From contig JAFNIT010000007.1 of the NCBI GenBank assembly GCA_017601345.1, forward strand, positions 1 to 58,702: a stretch of DNA of 58,702 nt. Direction: 5' to 3'. The DNA is from Candidatus Brockarchaeota archaeon (GTDB taxonomy: Archaea; Thermoproteota; EX4484-205; JAAOZP01). Under the pieces are notes generated by a model that saw only the letters and a list, made by a program, of their open reading frames with translations, was not told the DNA's origin and made no database searches. Shown here piece after piece: positions 4,872 to 35,222 of the stretch. Every line of letters starts with the position of its first letter. The first letter of the stretch is position 1. The translations under genes were made by a program, and so were the position numbers.

Positions 4872-5039
4872 TTATAGGTTTATTAACATGTCGTATATGG
4901 ATGCCTTCCATGTTTTTGCCATGCTGTATTCTCCGTAATGGCGTTTGAATGTTAAAAATGCTGTTTCAACCGCCCAGCGTCTACCATAGCCATCAAGGAA
5001 GTCTAGGCTCAGCAAAGCTCACCGCCTGATAAGCCTCTT
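4872..5039 (-). mobile_element. Remnant of a DDE transposase C-terminus
   Basis: Reading the minus strand gives LDFLDGYGRRWAVETAF and then TFKRHYGEYSMAK, ending in DMLINL and a stop at 4872-4874. R-W-x-V-E-T-x-F followed by K-R-x-Y-G is the region around the catalytic glutamate of IS4/IS5-type DDE transposases. One in-frame stop (5019-5021) interrupts it, and upstream the sequence enters the uroporphyrinogen-decarboxylase-like remnant on the other strand. Only the last 40-50 residues of the transposase survive. No terminal inverted repeats were recognised. An old insertion may explain part of the gene loss around it. Confidence 0.6.
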
Positions 5040-5120
5040 ATCAACAGCCTTCCAATCCATAAAAAATCTGACAGGCAGAAAATTTAAATTAAGCCATAAA
5101 GCAAATAATTCAGAGTGCAG

Positions 5121-6240
5121 TTGAAAGAAACAAGTTCGCGTGAAAGGTTTAAAGAAACTTTTACTTTCGGTAAACCTAACAGGGTCTTTTTCATACCACA
5201 TTGGTTTTGGAACTCTACCATAAACCGTTGGTATTCAGAGGGCCTTCCGAGACGCTTACATTGACGAGTTCTTCGGATTCGACCGTTACGAGTTTATTCC
5301 AGTTAATCTTGGTTTTCTACCGCCATTCGAATACGAGGTTTATTTTGAGAACGAGGAATATAAGATCTATAGGAGATACGATGGGTGTAAGGTTAAAGAG
5401 TTTAAGCGATACTCAGAAGCAAGCATGCCTCAGTGGCTCGAGTACCCAATTAAAACTAGGCTTGACTGGGAAAGGGAAGTAATGCCAAGGCTTAACCCAA
5501 AGTCTCCGGCAAGATATCCTCTCTGGTGGGACGACTATGTGCGATGGGTTAGAGACAGGGATTATCCGCTCGGAATCTCCGCGGGAAGCTATTACGGGTG
5601 GATAAGGAACTGGATGGGTATTGAAAGGCTTTCAAGGCTCATATACGAGGACCCGGAGCTGATTAAGGAGATTGCAGACTATATAGCGGATTTCGTAATA
5701 GAAACGATAAGAAGAGCTGTTGAAGAAATAGATCTGGATTTTGCAATAATGTGGGAAGACATGGCTATGAAGACAGGTCCACTAATATTCCCGAGAAAGT
5801 TTAAAGAGCTCATGGTGCCAGCCTGCAAAAAAAAGTATTGACTTCCTACATTCAAACGGCATTAAAATAATACTGTTAGATTCTGATGGCTGCATAGATC
5901 AGCCTATACCCATCTGGCTTGACGCAGGCGTGACGGGTGTTTACCCGTTAGAGGTTGCTGCAGGAGAAAGCGTTGTTGCCCCGAGGAAGAAGTACGGAAG
6001 AAGGCTTGCAATGTTTGGAGGGGTGGATAAGAGGGTCCTAGCTAGAAGTCGCGATGAAATAGAAAGACACTTATTCCAAGATGTAAAGCTACCGTAGATG
6101 CTGATACAGGGAGGATATACGCCGATGATAGATCATTCTGTGCCTCCGGATGTAACCTAGAAAACTTTTACTGGAGCATCGTAAGGGATGTTGCGAAGGA
6201 TCCTTTTAAGCATCTAGACAAATGTGGAGAGGTTGAGTGA
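5121..6240 (+). pseudogene. Uroporphyrinogen decarboxylase-superfamily protein, copy 1 (broken)
   Basis: A URO-D-like TIM-barrel protein can be followed from a TTG at 5121 (KETSSRERFKETF, then VFFIPHWFW) through EGLPR, YEFIPVNLGFLPP, NPKSPARYPLWWDDYV, GVTGVYPLEVAAGES and GGYTPMIDHSVPPDV. Frame changes lie near 5246, at the A8 run near 5825-5833, and near 6160, with a nonsense codon at about 6094. At least three lesions make it non-functional unless some are sequencing errors. The family includes haem enzymes and, more often in such tandem archaeal copies, MtaA-like corrinoid methyltransferases. Copy 2 follows directly. Confidence 0.75.
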
Positions 6241-11568: not shown

Positions 11569-11964
11569 TCATTTGCAACTCGTTACTTCCATTCTCCTCG
11601 TACAGTAGTCTAAAGCGATCCTCAGATTTTTTATTAGTTCTATCCCTATGACTATTTCCTCAAACCCTTTTACGGTTCCTATGAAGCCGCTGAACTGGTT
11701 TTTAAGGCTCGGTATAACTACCTCGCCGAATGTCCCAACGGACTGTATAGAGAGGGCATTGGCAAGAACGAGTTGTCTTTGCTCCGTGGAAAACTGGTCA
11801 AAAGAAAGCCCTTTGAAAACAGTCTCCGGTATGAGTAAGAATCCTTCAAACCCTGTGTCAAGCACGGCGATAACAGTGCCCTCGCTCGGAAAACTCTTGT
11901 TCATTATGGGATTCCTAATGATTATCTCCAGCACCGGAGTATCATCTAGAAAATAGGAATTCAT
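11569..11964 (-). CDS. Retropepsin-like (clan AA) aspartic protease, single domain
   Basis: This 131-aa protein has the active-site motif VIAVLDTGFEGFLLIP with D36-T37-G38, followed by a flap-like segment (SVGTFGEVVIP) and the late VIGIELIKNLRIALDY block that completes the pepsin-like half. A single domain must dimerise to form an active site with two aspartates. It is the third gene of an operon with a DUF5678-like 50-aa protein (8-nt gap) and a ribbon-helix-helix regulator. The same kind of pairing recurs at 34418-35222. No signal peptide or TM segment is seen, so it is probably cytoplasmic. Its substrate is unknown. Confidence 0.8.
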   Translation of the reverse strand: MNSYFLDDTPVLEIIIRNPIMNKSFPSEGTVIAVLDTGFEGFLLIPETVFKGLSFDQFSTEQRQLVLANALSIQSVGTFGEVVIPSLKNQFSGFIGTVKGFEEIVIGIELIKNLRIALDYCTRRMEVTSCK

Positions 11965-11972
11965 CTTTCCAG

Positions 11973-12125
11973 TTATGTGTGGCTGAGGGTTGGTCTCATT
12001 CTATACCCGCCGCGGGCCACTGGCTTAATCGGCTTCGTCGACACTATTCTCAGGCCCCGCGGTTCAATGCCTCTGCTTTTTAAAATCGACGCTAGCTCTT
12101 CTAGGGTACTGGCTTCCGCTACCAC
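11973..12125 (-). CDS. Small DUF5678-like protein
   Basis: A 50-residue frame starts with GTG at 12125, overlapping the stop of the upstream regulator by 7 nt (GTGGTAG), and ends 8 nt before the protease gene. The sequence VAEASTLEELASILKSRGIE followed by LRIVSTKP resembles the core of DUF5678 (a VVA strand, an acidic helix with ELxxxLKxRG, and a closing strand). These mini-proteins are often encoded beside clan AA proteases in archaea and cyanobacteria. It could be the protease's inhibitor, adaptor or substrate. Family assignment is by pattern only and is moderate. Confidence 0.55.
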   Translation of the reverse strand: MVAEASTLEELASILKSRGIEPRGLRIVSTKPIKPVARGGYRMRPTLSHT

Positions 12126-12313
12126 ATCCCCCTCCCTAAGAGCTTTAAATACTGTTTTTCGTAATCTGTGGATTTATCCAGGATCGCGAAATAATTCGAA
12201 GCGCTTTCAATCACTCTTGACATTCCCCCTTTACTTGATCCATATAAGCGTCTAACAATACTTCTAAGCTTCTTTTCAACATCGTCGTTAAGGGAGATCG
12301 TAATTGTGCCCAT
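12119..12313 (-). CDS. Ribbon-helix-helix (CopG/VapB-like) DNA-binding protein
   Basis: This 64-aa protein begins with the ITISLNDDVEKKLRSIVRR strand-helix of an RHH fold and has a second helix (KGGMSRVIESAS). The strand side chains of such dimers read DNA in the major groove. In archaea these proteins are usually antitoxins or autoregulators. Here the downstream partners are a DUF5678-like mini-protein and an aspartic protease rather than a PIN or RelE toxin. Translational overlap (7 nt) with the next gene shows an operon. An imperfect palindrome between its TATA box and start codon may be its operator. Confidence 0.75.
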   Translation of the reverse strand: MGTITISLNDDVEKKLRSIVRRLYGSSKGGMSRVIESASNYFAILDKSTDYEKQYLKLLGRGMW

Positions 12314-12469: not shown

Positions 12470-12904
12470 ATGCTTTTATCAACCCTTTGTTTTAAAAACA
12501 TCGTGGAGAAAAGGATAAGATACATGGACAAGCTTGCTCATATAGATAGGAGAATAGCCAATATAGAATCTTGGTTACCCTCTCAAGACGAAGAGAAAAC
12601 TCGACTAGCAATCTACAAGGCTTTTCAGGAGATAGTTGGAGCATTCTTTGACATACTGTCTATGAAACTTGTCGAATTGAAAATACCCCAAAAGATGATT
12701 ACACTAACATTCTGTTAATCGAAGAAAAAGGATTAATCGGTAAAAAGACCTCTAGTATTCTGAGAAGCGCAAACGGATTGAGGAATAGGCTCATCCATAG
12801 CTATAATAAGTTATCAGATAGGGTTAGCTTTGGAATCGATTAAAACTCTACTTCCAAAACTGGCTAAAATAAAGAAGGATTTAGAAGCATGGACGAATAC
12901 ATAG
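12470..12904 (+). pseudogene. HEPN-domain ribonuclease toxin (DUF86/HepT-like), frameshifted
   Basis: Translated across two frame changes, this gene gives a helical HEPN protein. It begins IVEKRIRYMDKLAHIDRRI and AIYKAFQEIVGAFFDILSMK. A shift at the CCCCAAAA run (12685-12693) leads to NGLRNRLIHSYNKLSD, which contains the R-x4-H ribonuclease motif. A second shift near 12829 leads to ALESIKTLLPKLAKIKKDLE and a stop at 12902-12904. The final reading overlaps the MNT gene by 16 nt, as expected for a HepT-MntA pair. As sequenced, translation would stop at 12718, before the catalytic motif, so the toxin should be inactive. Confidence 0.75.
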
Positions 12905-13248
12905 GCCCATACCAATTGTCTGAGATTAAGGGTGTTTTAGCAATACTCCTATTCGGCTCTAAGGTAAAGGGCGAATCGTTGACGAGAGATATCGATGTTT
13001 GTATAGTTGCACCAGAGGTTAACGATAAAGCAGGATTACTGCTAGAGGCGTTTTCCATGGTTAATAGTCAAAAGTGCGACATCTGGTTGTTTGAAGAACT
13101 TCCACTATACATGAAGGCTGAAATCATAAAGACCCATAAGGTAGTATGGTGTAAAGATATAGACAAACTTTACAGCTATTTCGCTGATCTTATGAAAATA
13201 TGGAGAGACCAGGAAGTAAGGATTAGAACACACATCAAAGAATTATAA
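12889..13248 (+). CDS. MNT-family nucleotidyltransferase antitoxin (MntA-like)
   Basis: This 119-aa minimal nucleotidyltransferase has the diagnostic GSKVKGESLTRDID (G23-S24 through D34 and D36), the metal- and ATP-binding signature of the polymerase-beta fold. In HEPN/MNT toxin-antitoxin systems this protein neutralises the HEPN ribonuclease by transferring AMP groups to it. The gene is intact and overlaps the 3' end of the broken HEPN gene. An intact antitoxin beside a dead toxin is the expected order of decay. No other function is suggested by context. Confidence 0.82.
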   Translation: MDEYIGPYQLSEIKGVLAILLFGSKVKGESLTRDIDVCIVAPEVNDKAGLLLEAFSMVNSQKCDIWLFEELPLYMKAEIIKTHKVVWCKDIDKLYSYFADLMKIWRDQEVRIRTHIKEL

Positions 13249-13434: not shown

Positions 13435-14262
13435 CTATTTTTCGGCCTGTATGACGAATTTACAAACATTATCTCCCTTAGCTATACATTCTGTCTCGGT
13501 TACGTTGACATTTTTACCATATAATTGTTGAAAGATCCCCGCCAAGTATCCTCTGAATAGCTGGCTGACAGGCCTTTCCTGCCTATCTCTAAAAGGCATG
13601 CATTCGAAAAGGTCCTTAGCCAGCACTACGGCACCCTTACTGTTAAACTCATCTAACCTGGAGATACACCATCCTTTAGCCGACCTCTCGGCCAATATGA
13701 TTTTAACTGCAGTCTGCTTGTCAACACGATAATTACTCACTACGGATTTGAATTTGCTCTCCCCCATTCCAAGCCCCATTTCGTATAGTATTACTGCTGC
13801 GCCTGTTCCGAATTTCTCGTAGAGCCTCTTCAGTATTGCTCCGAAGCTCTCAACCCTGAGGGTGAAGCTCCTTTCACCGCCCACCATCAAAGGGAAGAAG
13901 AGCTCGTCAATAATGAGCCCGTTGAGAACGTTATCAGAGAACTTTACTTCTAAAACACCCTCAATTCTCTTTATGTCCTCGATCACTCCAGCCAGGTCTC
14001 CATCTAATTTGGATACGTCAATTAAAACTCCTTTGACGATTTCATCTTTTTCCATATCGAGGTTTAGAAAACCCGATAACTCCACTATGTTCTTATTGTG
14101 GAATAAGTCTACGATATTCTTTAGGGTTTTTCTCTTCATCCTCACATACAGTTCGGCAAGTCTTGCTTGCGGAAGATACGCTTTACATAAAATGTCCTTC
14201 GGAATGTCTCCTCCATCAAGTTCCTTACCAAACTCTTCTAAACTTTTAGTCCCACGTCGCAC
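13435..14262 (-). CDS. V4R-domain protein, copy 1
   Basis: This 275-aa protein has an N-terminal ACT-like half (about 20-115) and a C-terminal V4R domain (about 120-275). V4R domains bind small hydrophobic or cofactor-like molecules. ETECIAKGDNVCKFVIQ near the end supplies the cysteines typical of the fold. A GTG start at 14262 is supported by a TATA palindrome 26 nt upstream. A paralogue lies at 18077-18898, and the central FTLRVESFGAILKRLYEKFG block is identical between them. The function is unknown. Related archaeal V4R proteins are thought to sense ligands or regulate transcription; there is no HTH here. Confidence 0.72.
   Translation of the reverse strand: MRRGTKSLEEFGKELDGGDIPKDILCKAYLPQARLAELYVRMKRKTLKNIVDLFHNKNIVELSGFLNLDMEKDEIVKGVLIDVSKLDGDLAGVIEDIKRIEGVLEVKFSDNVLNGLIIDELFFPLMVGGERSFTLRVESFGAILKRLYEKFGTGAAVILYEMGLGMGESKFKSVVSNYRVDKQTAVKIILAERSAKGWCISRLDEFNSKGAVVLAKDLFECMPFRDRQERPVSQLFRGYLAGIFQQLYGKNVNVTETECIAKGDNVCKFVIQAEK
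13763..13851. repeat. 89-bp block identical to 18405-18493 (V4R copy 1)
   Basis: Every base from 13763 to 13851 matches 18405-18493 (constant offset 4642) inside two paralogues that otherwise differ at many silent positions. It encodes the middle of the V4R domain. Flanking codons diverge at once (ccccc versus caccc at the left, caa versus cga at the right). Confidence 0.85.
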
Positions 14263-18076: not shown

Positions 18077-18898
18077 CTATTTTACGGCCTGTATTATAAA
18101 CTTACAGAAACTTTCCCCCTTAGCTATACATTCTACCTCTGTTACATTAACACTTTTACCGTATGCTTGCTGGAATATGCCTGTTAAATAGCCTCTGAAA
18201 AAATGACTTATTGGCCTTTCCTGATTGTTTTTAAAAGGCAAGCATTCGAAGAGCTCTCGCACTACAATGACCGCCCCATTTTTACCGTAACCTTCCAATT
18301 GTGAAATACACCATCCTTTAGCTGATCTTTCGGCAAGTATTATTTTTACTGCTGTCTGCTTGTCTACGTGATACTTGTTTACTACTGATTTGAACTTGCT
18401 CTCACCCATTCCAAGCCCCATTTCGTATAGTATTACTGCTGCGCCTGTTCCGAATTTCTCGTAGAGCCTCTTCAGTATTGCTCCGAAGCTCTCGACCCTA
18501 AGAGTAAAACTTCTCTCACCCCCTACCATTAAGGGGAAGAACAATTCGTCTATAATGAGCCCATCAAGCGAATTATCTGAAAACTTTACTTCCAAAACAC
18601 CATTAATATTTTTGAGCGATTCGGCTATGTCTCTCGCATCCTCATTCGACCCAGAGATGTCAGCTAGGAATCCTTTTATGATTTCTCCTTTTTCAAGATC
18701 GAGGTTTTGAAAGCCATATATTTCAACAATTTTCTTTTCTAAAAGCATTTTTGTAACCTTTTCTAAGCTACTACTCTTTAGTTTTAAGTAGAATTCTGCA
18801 AGCTTAGATCTCGGAAGATATGCTTCGCATAAGAAATCCTTGGGAATCCCTTCCCCATTTGACGCAGGTGTTTGCTTCATCTCCTCTCCATGACGCAT
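18077..18898 (-). CDS. V4R-domain protein, copy 2
   Basis: This 273-aa paralogue of the protein at 13435 shares the ACT-like N-terminal half (diverged) and the V4R C-terminal half (near identical in the middle), ending with the VECIAKGESFCKFIIQ cysteine block. The start is the ATG at 18898, placed 25 nt from a TATA palindrome. The N-terminal 20 residues are unlike copy 1. Two paralogues 4 kb apart may sense different ligands or form heterodimers. Their role is unknown. Confidence 0.72.
   Translation of the reverse strand: MRHGEEMKQTPASNGEGIPKDFLCEAYLPRSKLAEFYLKLKSSSLEKVTKMLLEKKIVEIYGFQNLDLEKGEIIKGFLADISGSNEDARDIAESLKNINGVLEVKFSDNSLDGLIIDELFFPLMVGGERSFTLRVESFGAILKRLYEKFGTGAAVILYEMGLGMGESKFKSVVNKYHVDKQTAVKIILAERSAKGWCISQLEGYGKNGAVIVVRELFECLPFKNNQERPISHFFRGYLTGIFQQAYGKSVNVTEVECIAKGESFCKFIIQAVK
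18405..18493. repeat. 89-bp block identical to 13763-13851 (V4R copy 2)
   Basis: This is the partner of the identical block in V4R copy 1. Perfect identity over 89 bp inside genes with many synonymous differences elsewhere suggests recent local gene conversion. Confidence 0.85.
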
Positions 18899-34385: not shown

Positions 34386-34394
34386 GCTTATATC
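34386..34394 (+). promoter_or_regulatory. TATA box for the winged-helix/retropepsin module
   Basis: GCTTATATC is centred about 28 nt upstream of the ATG at 34418, predicting a leaderless transcript. The 9-bp tandem repeat lies between it and the start. Confidence 0.5.
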
Positions 34395-34395
34395 G

Positions 34396-34413
34396 GTCAT
34401 ATTAGTCATATTA
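34396..34413 (+). repeat. Perfect 9-bp tandem repeat, probable operator
   Basis: GTCATATTA occurs twice head to tail and fills the space between the TATA box and the start codon of a winged-helix protein. That is where an autorepressor would occlude RNA polymerase. The repeat is seen directly; the operator role is inferred from position. Confidence 0.55.
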
Positions 34414-34417
34414 ATTT

Positions 34418-34849
34418 ATGATTCATACGGATGCCTTCCGAAAGTATTTAGAAAATGCTTATTCAAGGCTTCTCCATAAATTTGGGGGAAGTCCCTTTCG
34501 CCTTGAAGAGGCGGCTAAAGCGCTTGGAGTGAAACCCAGTTACATGAAGAATTTGCTTAGCGAGCTCAGGCGTAGGGGTTGGCTTATTTCAAAGCCCGAT
34601 GAGAATGATGCGAGGCGTGCTGTTTATATCCTGGACCTTACTTTCATTAATGAGATGAAAACGTGTGAAGTAAGGACAACAATAAGCACCTATGAGGGCG
34701 AGTATGTTCTCTTTGTTAAAGGGAAAGTAGTCGACAGAGATTATGACATTCAAAGGCTAGTTCGAAGAGCCTTGAAGAAGTATAAACCGGACGAAATTTA
34801 TATAACCAATGTTGGAAGGCCGAGGGAGCTTGTCACAATCGGGTTTTAA
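34418..34849 (+). CDS. Winged-helix DNA-binding protein with C-terminal DUF5678-like domain
   Basis: This 143-aa protein begins with a winged helix (about 5-78). FRLEEAAKALGVKPSYMKNL is the helix-turn-helix and LRRRGWLISKPD the wing. The C-terminal part (about 88-143) reads YEGEYVLFVKGKVVDRDYD and ends with KKYKPDEIYITNVGRP, matching the strand-VV-helix-strand plan of DUF5678. The retropepsin gene begins 41 nt inside its 3' end. In the equivalent module at 11569-12313 the DNA-binding and DUF5678-like parts are separate proteins. It probably regulates its own operon through the tandem repeat. Confidence 0.72.
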   Translation: MIHTDAFRKYLENAYSRLLHKFGGSPFRLEEAAKALGVKPSYMKNLLSELRRRGWLISKPDENDARRAVYILDLTFINEMKTCEVRTTISTYEGEYVLFVKGKVVDRDYDIQRLVRRALKKYKPDEIYITNVGRPRELVTIGF

Positions 34850-35222
34850 GTGTTGGCCTCATATAGGAAACAGGCCTCCCTCTCCATCTATAAGTATCAC
34901 CATCTCAGCTAGCGAAAAGGAGGAAGGCTTAACCAAGATGTTTCAAGTAGATACAGGGTTCTCAGGAGCAGTTGCGATAGACCAGGAGCTCATAGACCTC
35001 CTGAGTCCCCGTAGGATTGGTAGCATTCATATCGCTACTGCCACAAGCCTCGACGTTAGGACAGATCTTTACCTCGTCTATATAACGATTCTTAATATTA
35101 AGATTAATCGGCAACCGTTCGCAGCACTCAGGGCAACGCGGTGTTTAATAGGCAGGCAACTATTGGATTGTCGGAAATGGCTATTGGACAATGTGCAGAA
35201 TAAATTCTGCTTATTAAGCTAG
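34809..35222 (+). CDS. Retropepsin-like (clan AA) aspartic protease, second copy
   Basis: The active-site motif is MFQVDTGFSGAVAID (D48-T49-G50 from the ATG at 34809), followed by RIGSIHIATATSLDVR and the late CLIGRQLLDCRKWLLD block. At 137 aa it is a single pepsin-like lobe and must dimerise. The ATG lies inside the upstream gene; a TTG at 34830 is an alternative start, and both give the same domain. No export signal is visible. Tight coupling to a DNA-binding DUF5678-like protein mirrors the operon at 11569-12313. Confidence 0.75.
   Translation: MLEGRGSLSQSGFKCWPHIGNRPPSPSISITISASEKEEGLTKMFQVDTGFSGAVAIDQELIDLLSPRRIGSIHIATATSLDVRTDLYLVYITILNIKINRQPFAALRATRCLIGRQLLDCRKWLLDNVQNKFCLLS

Follow-up and report, generated by a model that had tools for sequence, protein, structure and literature searches.

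What kind of system is formed when a gene for a DNA-binding protein runs into the gene for an aspartic protease? The window analyzed here, by which we mean the whole stretch of 58,702 nucleotides, is part of a 1.18-Mb metagenome-assembled archaeal genome and contains such a locus: a winged helix is joined to a DUF5678 domain in one polypeptide, and the 3' end of its gene overlaps the gene for a retropepsin-like protease of clan AA (copy 2; Table 1). The original prediction held that this locus, together with a second one elsewhere in the window (copy 1), is a sign that DNA binding, DUF5678, and the protease are functionally linked. Overlapping pairs of a DUF5678 protein gene and a gene for a retropepsin-like (HIV-protease-like) enzyme are hosted by hot-spring archaea.

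Two overlapping genes encode constrained proteins

Both ORFs were recovered as predicted. In a whole-protein scan, aa 90-126 of the first protein matched Pfam DUF5678 (PF18929) with an E value of 1.5e-4, the 22.0 bits lying just under the cutoff of 23.2; in a genome-wide search, the match to this 49-position domain reached 23.3 bits, just above the cutoff, which places the protein in the family. We also constructed an independent DUF5678 profile that draws on 90 further loci in the phylum and excludes every winged-helix member; residues 83-143 scored 43 bits on it, and 200 shuffled sequences at most 11 bits. The C-terminal region is thus related to DUF5678, a point on which the original prediction had staked itself.

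At the N terminus, residues 19-67 gave weak, subcutoff wHTH matches in Pfam (AbiEi_4, E value of 1e-4; MarR_2, 3e-4). An AlphaFold model of the protein (mean pLDDT of 69.5) displays three helices and a two-strand wing followed by a β-β-α-β unit; confidence is low for the intervening linker at aa 78-93 and for a tail at aa 133-143. Foldseek searches with this model, informative for the winged helix alone, retrieved MarR-family winged helices for the N terminus. We rejected assignment to the MarR family proper, as its scores of 19.5 to 21.3 bits fell short of the two Pfam cutoffs (24.6 and 27) and the top Foldseek alignment covered just 72 columns rather than a complete dimerizing fold, and likewise to AbiE, as AbiEi_4 scored 22.7 against 25 bits and the partner gene encodes a protease rather than an AbiEii nucleotidyltransferase. 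Searches of PDB sequences with either protein of the pair retrieved no useful relative.

The second protein possesses the D-T/S-G active-site motif of aspartic proteases, in a hydrophobic context and in the form VDTGF, which is invariant across the four orthologs. Its score with the clan AA model TIGR03698 was 34.3 bits against a curated cutoff of 57.35, and it is a divergent clan AA protein on sequence grounds, outside formal membership in TIGR03698. AlphaFold modeling from the four sequences yielded a pLDDT of 38, too poor for inspection.

The protease start had been placed 41 nt inside the first gene. The overlap as such stands; its length depends on the choice of start codon. A start codon at the position of ATG 34809 is missing from two of the four orthologs; the one start that all of them share is TTG 34830, which shortens the overlap to 20 nt. 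Intact orthologous pairs occur in three further genomes of the genus with 76 to 85% identity, and the dN/dS values of both genes (Table 1) indicate purifying selection, which shows that both are real, constrained proteins. The distribution is patchy: the intact pair is found in four of eight genomes of the genus, with one decayed copy in a fifth. This decayed winged-helix-DUF5678 gene (L125, positions 4942-5304; G002:C19) contains seven in-frame stops and is accompanied neither by a downstream protease nor by the promoter repeat described below.

Table 1. Features of copy 1 and copy 2 in the window
Feature	Position	Strand	Evidence and remarks
TATA-box-like CTTATAT	34387-34393	+	25-31 nt before ATG; position identical in 4/4 orthologs
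Candidate operator: 9-bp GTCATATTA, two direct copies in tandem	34396-34413	+	Kept in 4/4 orthologs with 0-1 mismatch
Winged-helix-DUF5678 fusion protein, 143 aa	34418-34849	+	ORF, Pfam, profile, AlphaFold; dN/dS 0.09-0.23
Winged-helix domain, aa 3-72	34424-34633	+	AlphaFold blocks with pLDDT 60-85; MarR-type Foldseek matches; subcutoff AbiEi_4/MarR Pfam matches
DUF5678 domain, aa 90-126, β-β-α-β	34685-34795	+	Pfam, profile score, AlphaFold
Gene overlap	34809-34849	+	41 nt from ATG 34809; 20 nt from common TTG 34830
Clan AA (retropepsin-like) aspartic protease, 137 aa	34809-35222	+	VDTGF motif at 34947-34961; clan_AA_DTGF E value 2.3e-8; dN/dS 0.10-0.18
Copy-1 clan AA protease, LDTGF	11569-11964	-	clan_AA_DTGF 62.5 bits, above cutoff
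Copy-1 "mini-protein," C-terminal half of RHH gene, weakly DUF5678-like	11973-12125	-	ORF comparison, profile
Copy-1 RHH part, early stop after frameshift at A-run 12155-12159	12122-12313	-	Relative L014 reads through

A candidate operator in the promoter

Each of the four pairs has two tandem units, GTCATATTA-GTCATATTA, between the TATA box and the ATG, and the flanks farther upstream are unrelated from genome to genome. The spacing of TATA box and start is typical of leaderless archaeal transcripts. Across eight genomes of the genus, searches at up to 2 mismatches retrieved only these four promoters and one match in a coding sequence; with 3 mismatches allowed, the number of occurrences expected by chance in the window is 0.07. 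The repeat is likely an operator, and its placement between TATA box and start would have the look expected of an autorepressor site. The coding-sequence match, which is on a different contig of the genome (C8) and lies in a stretch coding for membrane segments, was judged to be due to chance. Candidate tandem repeats with units of about 9 bp, imperfect in sequence, are also seen upstream of several RHH-DUF5678 genes (L107, L080, and L109).

An RHH-containing pair in the same window

Copy 1 had been described as an RHH gene and a separate mini-protein gene that, by the logic of domain fusion, should act together. This expectation proved right in a stronger sense, as the two are halves of one gene. 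In the genome of a close relative (G007), the same region beside a fumarase-like gene carries a single intact ORF of 114 aa (L014, 95% identical) that spans both, which rules out a two-gene reading. The aligned DNAs differ by a single base in the A-run 12155-12159 (minus strand) and by a 3-base in-frame difference; this identifies the mini-protein as the C-terminal half of a gene that is frameshifted or missequenced, and the split would reflect either an error of the metagenome assembly or a recent frameshift. It follows that both copies share the same architecture.

The likeness of the C-terminal region of copy 2 to the mini-protein, also part of the original prediction, turned out to be partial and weak. 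BLASTP of the fusion protein against the mini-protein gave no alignment, and a Pfam scan of the copy-1 C terminus gave no DUF5678 match, even in the intact relative. The relative's C terminus scored 12.8 bits over 28 positions of the DUF5678 profile, and shuffled sequences at most 6.7 bits, so that it appears only marginally recognizable as DUF5678. The RHH domain of copy 1 is similar to RHH antitoxin-like proteins whose genes overlap PIN-domain genes.

Two other features of the window were noted. Upstream of copy 1, on the opposite strand, an ORF at 12889-13248 encodes a nucleotidyltransferase-like protein with the motif LLFGSKVKGESLTRDIDV, possibly a member of an MNT-HEPN pair. At 13435-14262 and 18077-18898 (minus strand), about 4 kb apart, are genes for paralogous proteins of about 274 aa with a near-identical central segment, which by eye bear a resemblance to V4R-type sensor proteins.

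DUF5678 is paired with clan AA proteases across the phylum

We surveyed 398 genomes of the phylum and found DUF5678 in 63 of them, at 96 loci; these include a few near-duplicates, one false match to an ABC transporter, one pseudogene, and some contig ends. For the proteases, a profile was seeded with those of the genus that do not adjoin DUF5678 and was then iterated (34 frames in the first pass and 77 in the last). A same-strand clan AA protease lies within 400 nt downstream at 66 of the 96 loci, and the protease matches in DUF5678 loci comprise 74 in the sense and 3 in the antisense orientation. The pairing spans dozens of genera and three kinds of N terminus. About 20 DUF5678 proteins have an N-terminal RHH-like domain; several of them display Pfam RHH/VapB matches, with the curated cutoff passed by only 2 of the 9 RHH-type proteins tested. 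There are 4 winged-helix-DUF5678 loci before proteases, all confined to the genus of the window, and no fusion with both a winged helix and DUF5678 was found outside that genus among the 398 genomes, where the matches were mostly to the winged helix alone. The copy-1 type is therefore the common form and the winged helix a local variant. Genes of either type nearly always overlap the protease gene.

This survey and the covariation described below strongly support the functional link that the original prediction proposed. Its generality has bounds: the majority of DUF5678 proteins, including protease-paired ones, are devoid of a DNA-binding domain, so DNA binding is not a general function of the family. 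No neighboring protease was detected at about 31% of the DUF5678 loci, and many of the genus's clan AA proteases (e.g., L016-L038) are solo genes without DUF5678 that form a separate clade, so neither protein strictly needs the other. Stand-alone DUF5678 proteins often end in a hydrophobic tripeptide such as LIL, AIL, or MFF (29 of the 41 that have a protease and 14 of the 27 that do not). We considered this ending as a universal protease-binding tail and rejected it, as it is absent from all 19 RHH fusions and all 4 winged-helix fusions.

Kinship and covariation of the paired proteins

The protease of copy 2 aligns with its counterpart in an RHH-type pair of a different family over 131 residues with 25% identity (E value of 1e-13), and in a tree of 18 proteases, the winged-helix-linked ones fall within the clade of RHH-linked ones, copy 1 included (support of 89/92, with long branches). 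The original prediction of two independent modules was hence only half right, as the proteases of both copies are members of one clade. By DUF5678 distances, the winged-helix protein is nearest to a stand-alone form. Since its DUF5678 and its protease have these different affinities, it is possible that a winged helix replaced the RHH domain or that a separate fusion took place.

Among 60 pairs, the distances between DUF5678 domains correlate with those between the proteases (Mantel r of 0.77; largest value in 2,000 shuffles, 0.09), and the correlation persists once close pairs are removed (r of 0.52). In 43 of the 60 pairs, against 5 expected, the nearest neighbor of the protease is among those belonging to the five nearest DUF5678s. 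Such covariation fits cognate partners and in part reflects shared descent.

A putative self-regulated repressor-protease system

As pairs of this kind turn up throughout the phylum with varying DNA-binding parts, the locus probably represents a self-regulated protease switch or a toxin-antitoxin (TA)-like module. The reading that we favor, with confidence and doubt about evenly balanced, is a two-gene self-regulated repressor-protease system in which DUF5678 would dock onto its cognate protease and hold it in check. The N-terminal DNA-binding domain of the first protein, a winged helix here and RHH in most DNA-binding relatives, would bind the tandem repeat as an operator that overlies the beginning of its own leaderless operon, and the C-terminal DUF5678 would dock onto the retropepsin-like product of the overlapping second gene, restraining it in the manner of an antitoxin. 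Were the first protein lost or degraded, the protease would be freed and the operon derepressed. Autorepression, physical docking, inhibition, and toxicity or another output are the parts of this scheme that we infer. Because most DUF5678-protease pairs are without a DNA-binding domain, the contact between DUF5678 and protease should be the constant function and DNA binding an added regulatory layer. More tentatively, with somewhat less than even confidence, we suggest that DUF5678 may be a modular retropepsin-docking or inhibitor domain carried on interchangeable DNA-binding heads, which would define a widespread archaeal class of aspartic-protease TA or proteolytic-switch systems with no described aspartic-protease counterpart.

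Regulated proteolysis of the repressor, as in ImmA-ImmR or IrrE-DdrO, is a less likely, though serious, alternative. Here a signal would cause the protease to cleave the DNA-binding protein via DUF5678 or the tail, so that the operon, and perhaps further genes, would be induced, and the protease would be a switch rather than a toxin. A DNA-binding protein and a protease in an overlapping operon is the arrangement of the Xre-COG2856 modules (PMC2701414), the operator-like repeat suits a repressor, and the low-confidence linker and tail of the model are as a cleavable substrate might look. However, since most DUF5678-protease pairs are without a DNA-binding domain, cleavage of a repressor cannot be the general role, and since the repeat is unique in the genus to the module's own promoter, no regulon is visible.

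We regard as improbable a third reading, in which DUF5678 would be an adaptor for substrate delivery or localization of a housekeeping protease, with the DNA-binding version recruiting the protease to chromatin, where it would process a target bound to DNA. It would account for the variety of N-terminal domains on a constant DUF5678-protease core; against it, the patchy presence, the one decayed copy with its protease lost, and the operator-like repeat at the module's own promoter are unlike a housekeeping function. That the genes are functionally unrelated neighbors with an accidental fusion and overlap, as the 31% of loci without an adjacent protease might suggest, is very unlikely given the pairing over dozens of genera with three kinds of N terminus, the covariation, and the sense-strand bias.

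As to ancestry, the kinship of the copy-1 RHH domain with PIN-overlapping RHH proteins, together with the occurrence of the same winged helix (L141 and L147) at the N terminus of a type I restriction methylase and in a short protein encoded close to genes of nucleotidyltransferase type, leans toward a TA-like or defense-related origin. Genes of TA systems are weakly enriched among the neighbors (3 of 24 versus 1 of 72 loci); nucleotidyltransferase neighbors, considered as a sign of a TA island, were too few to rely on. Unlike the case of many TA systems, no relatives were found in the plasmid, phage, and viral collections searched.

Relationship to known systems and significance

The closest parallels lie among four groups of systems. 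The Xre-COG2856 modules (ImmR-ImmA and DdrO-IrrE), which have been proposed to be TA-like or to act by regulated repressor proteolysis (PMC2701414), likewise combine a small DNA-binding regulator and a small protease in one short operon (PMC2701414). The module described here differs in having an aspartic retropepsin-like protease rather than a HEXXH zinc peptidase, RHH or a winged helix rather than Xre, and an extra DUF5678 domain between the DNA-binding domain and the protease gene. Type II TA systems with RHH antitoxins, such as those of the VapBC type, share with it the order of a DNA-binding protein first and an overlapping partner second, an operator-like repeat at the module's own promoter (here a candidate), and the similarity of the copy-1 RHH domain to RHH proteins that overlap PIN genes; in contrast to them, the second gene encodes a protease and not an RNase, and the presumed partner-facing part is DUF5678. 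We file it under the DNA-binding-protein-plus-protease (TA-like) kind and not as a member of the Xre-COG2856, MarR, or AbiE groups.

The protease has homologs among the clan AA proteins of the PADLOC models PEPT_D and "protease" from type III CRISPR operons of Sulfolobales (E value of 1e-4 for the protease of copy 2 and about 2e-8 for an RHH-linked relative), models that cover the protease alone. The comparison was between protein profiles, and no connection of the module itself with CRISPR was noticed. Bacterial retropepsin-like proteases include RimB, RloA, and APRc, and the RloA enzymes described in that work are secreted (PMC12239564). As in these, the predicted protease is a short polypeptide with one DTG motif and would be expected to form a homodimer (PMC12239564); unlike it, the RloA enzymes are not described as having a DUF5678 or DNA-binding partner (PMC12239564). 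In full-text searches, with most subscription journals outside their coverage, DUF5678 was named only in a paper on plant clubroot, and the combination of RHH, aspartic protease, archaea, and operon was not found, so that the module seems to be undescribed so far.

To our knowledge, cytoplasmic retropepsin-like proteases of prokaryotes are mostly under no known control. The recurrent pairing, the covariation, and the different DNA-binding heads single out DUF5678, a domain without an assigned function, as the obvious candidate for the domain that partners the protease. Should it prove to be an inhibitor, it would represent a natural inhibitor of aspartic proteases, and TA-like modules would gain a new class of effector; if it is instead cleaved, the system would be an aspartic-protease counterpart of ImmA-ImmR.
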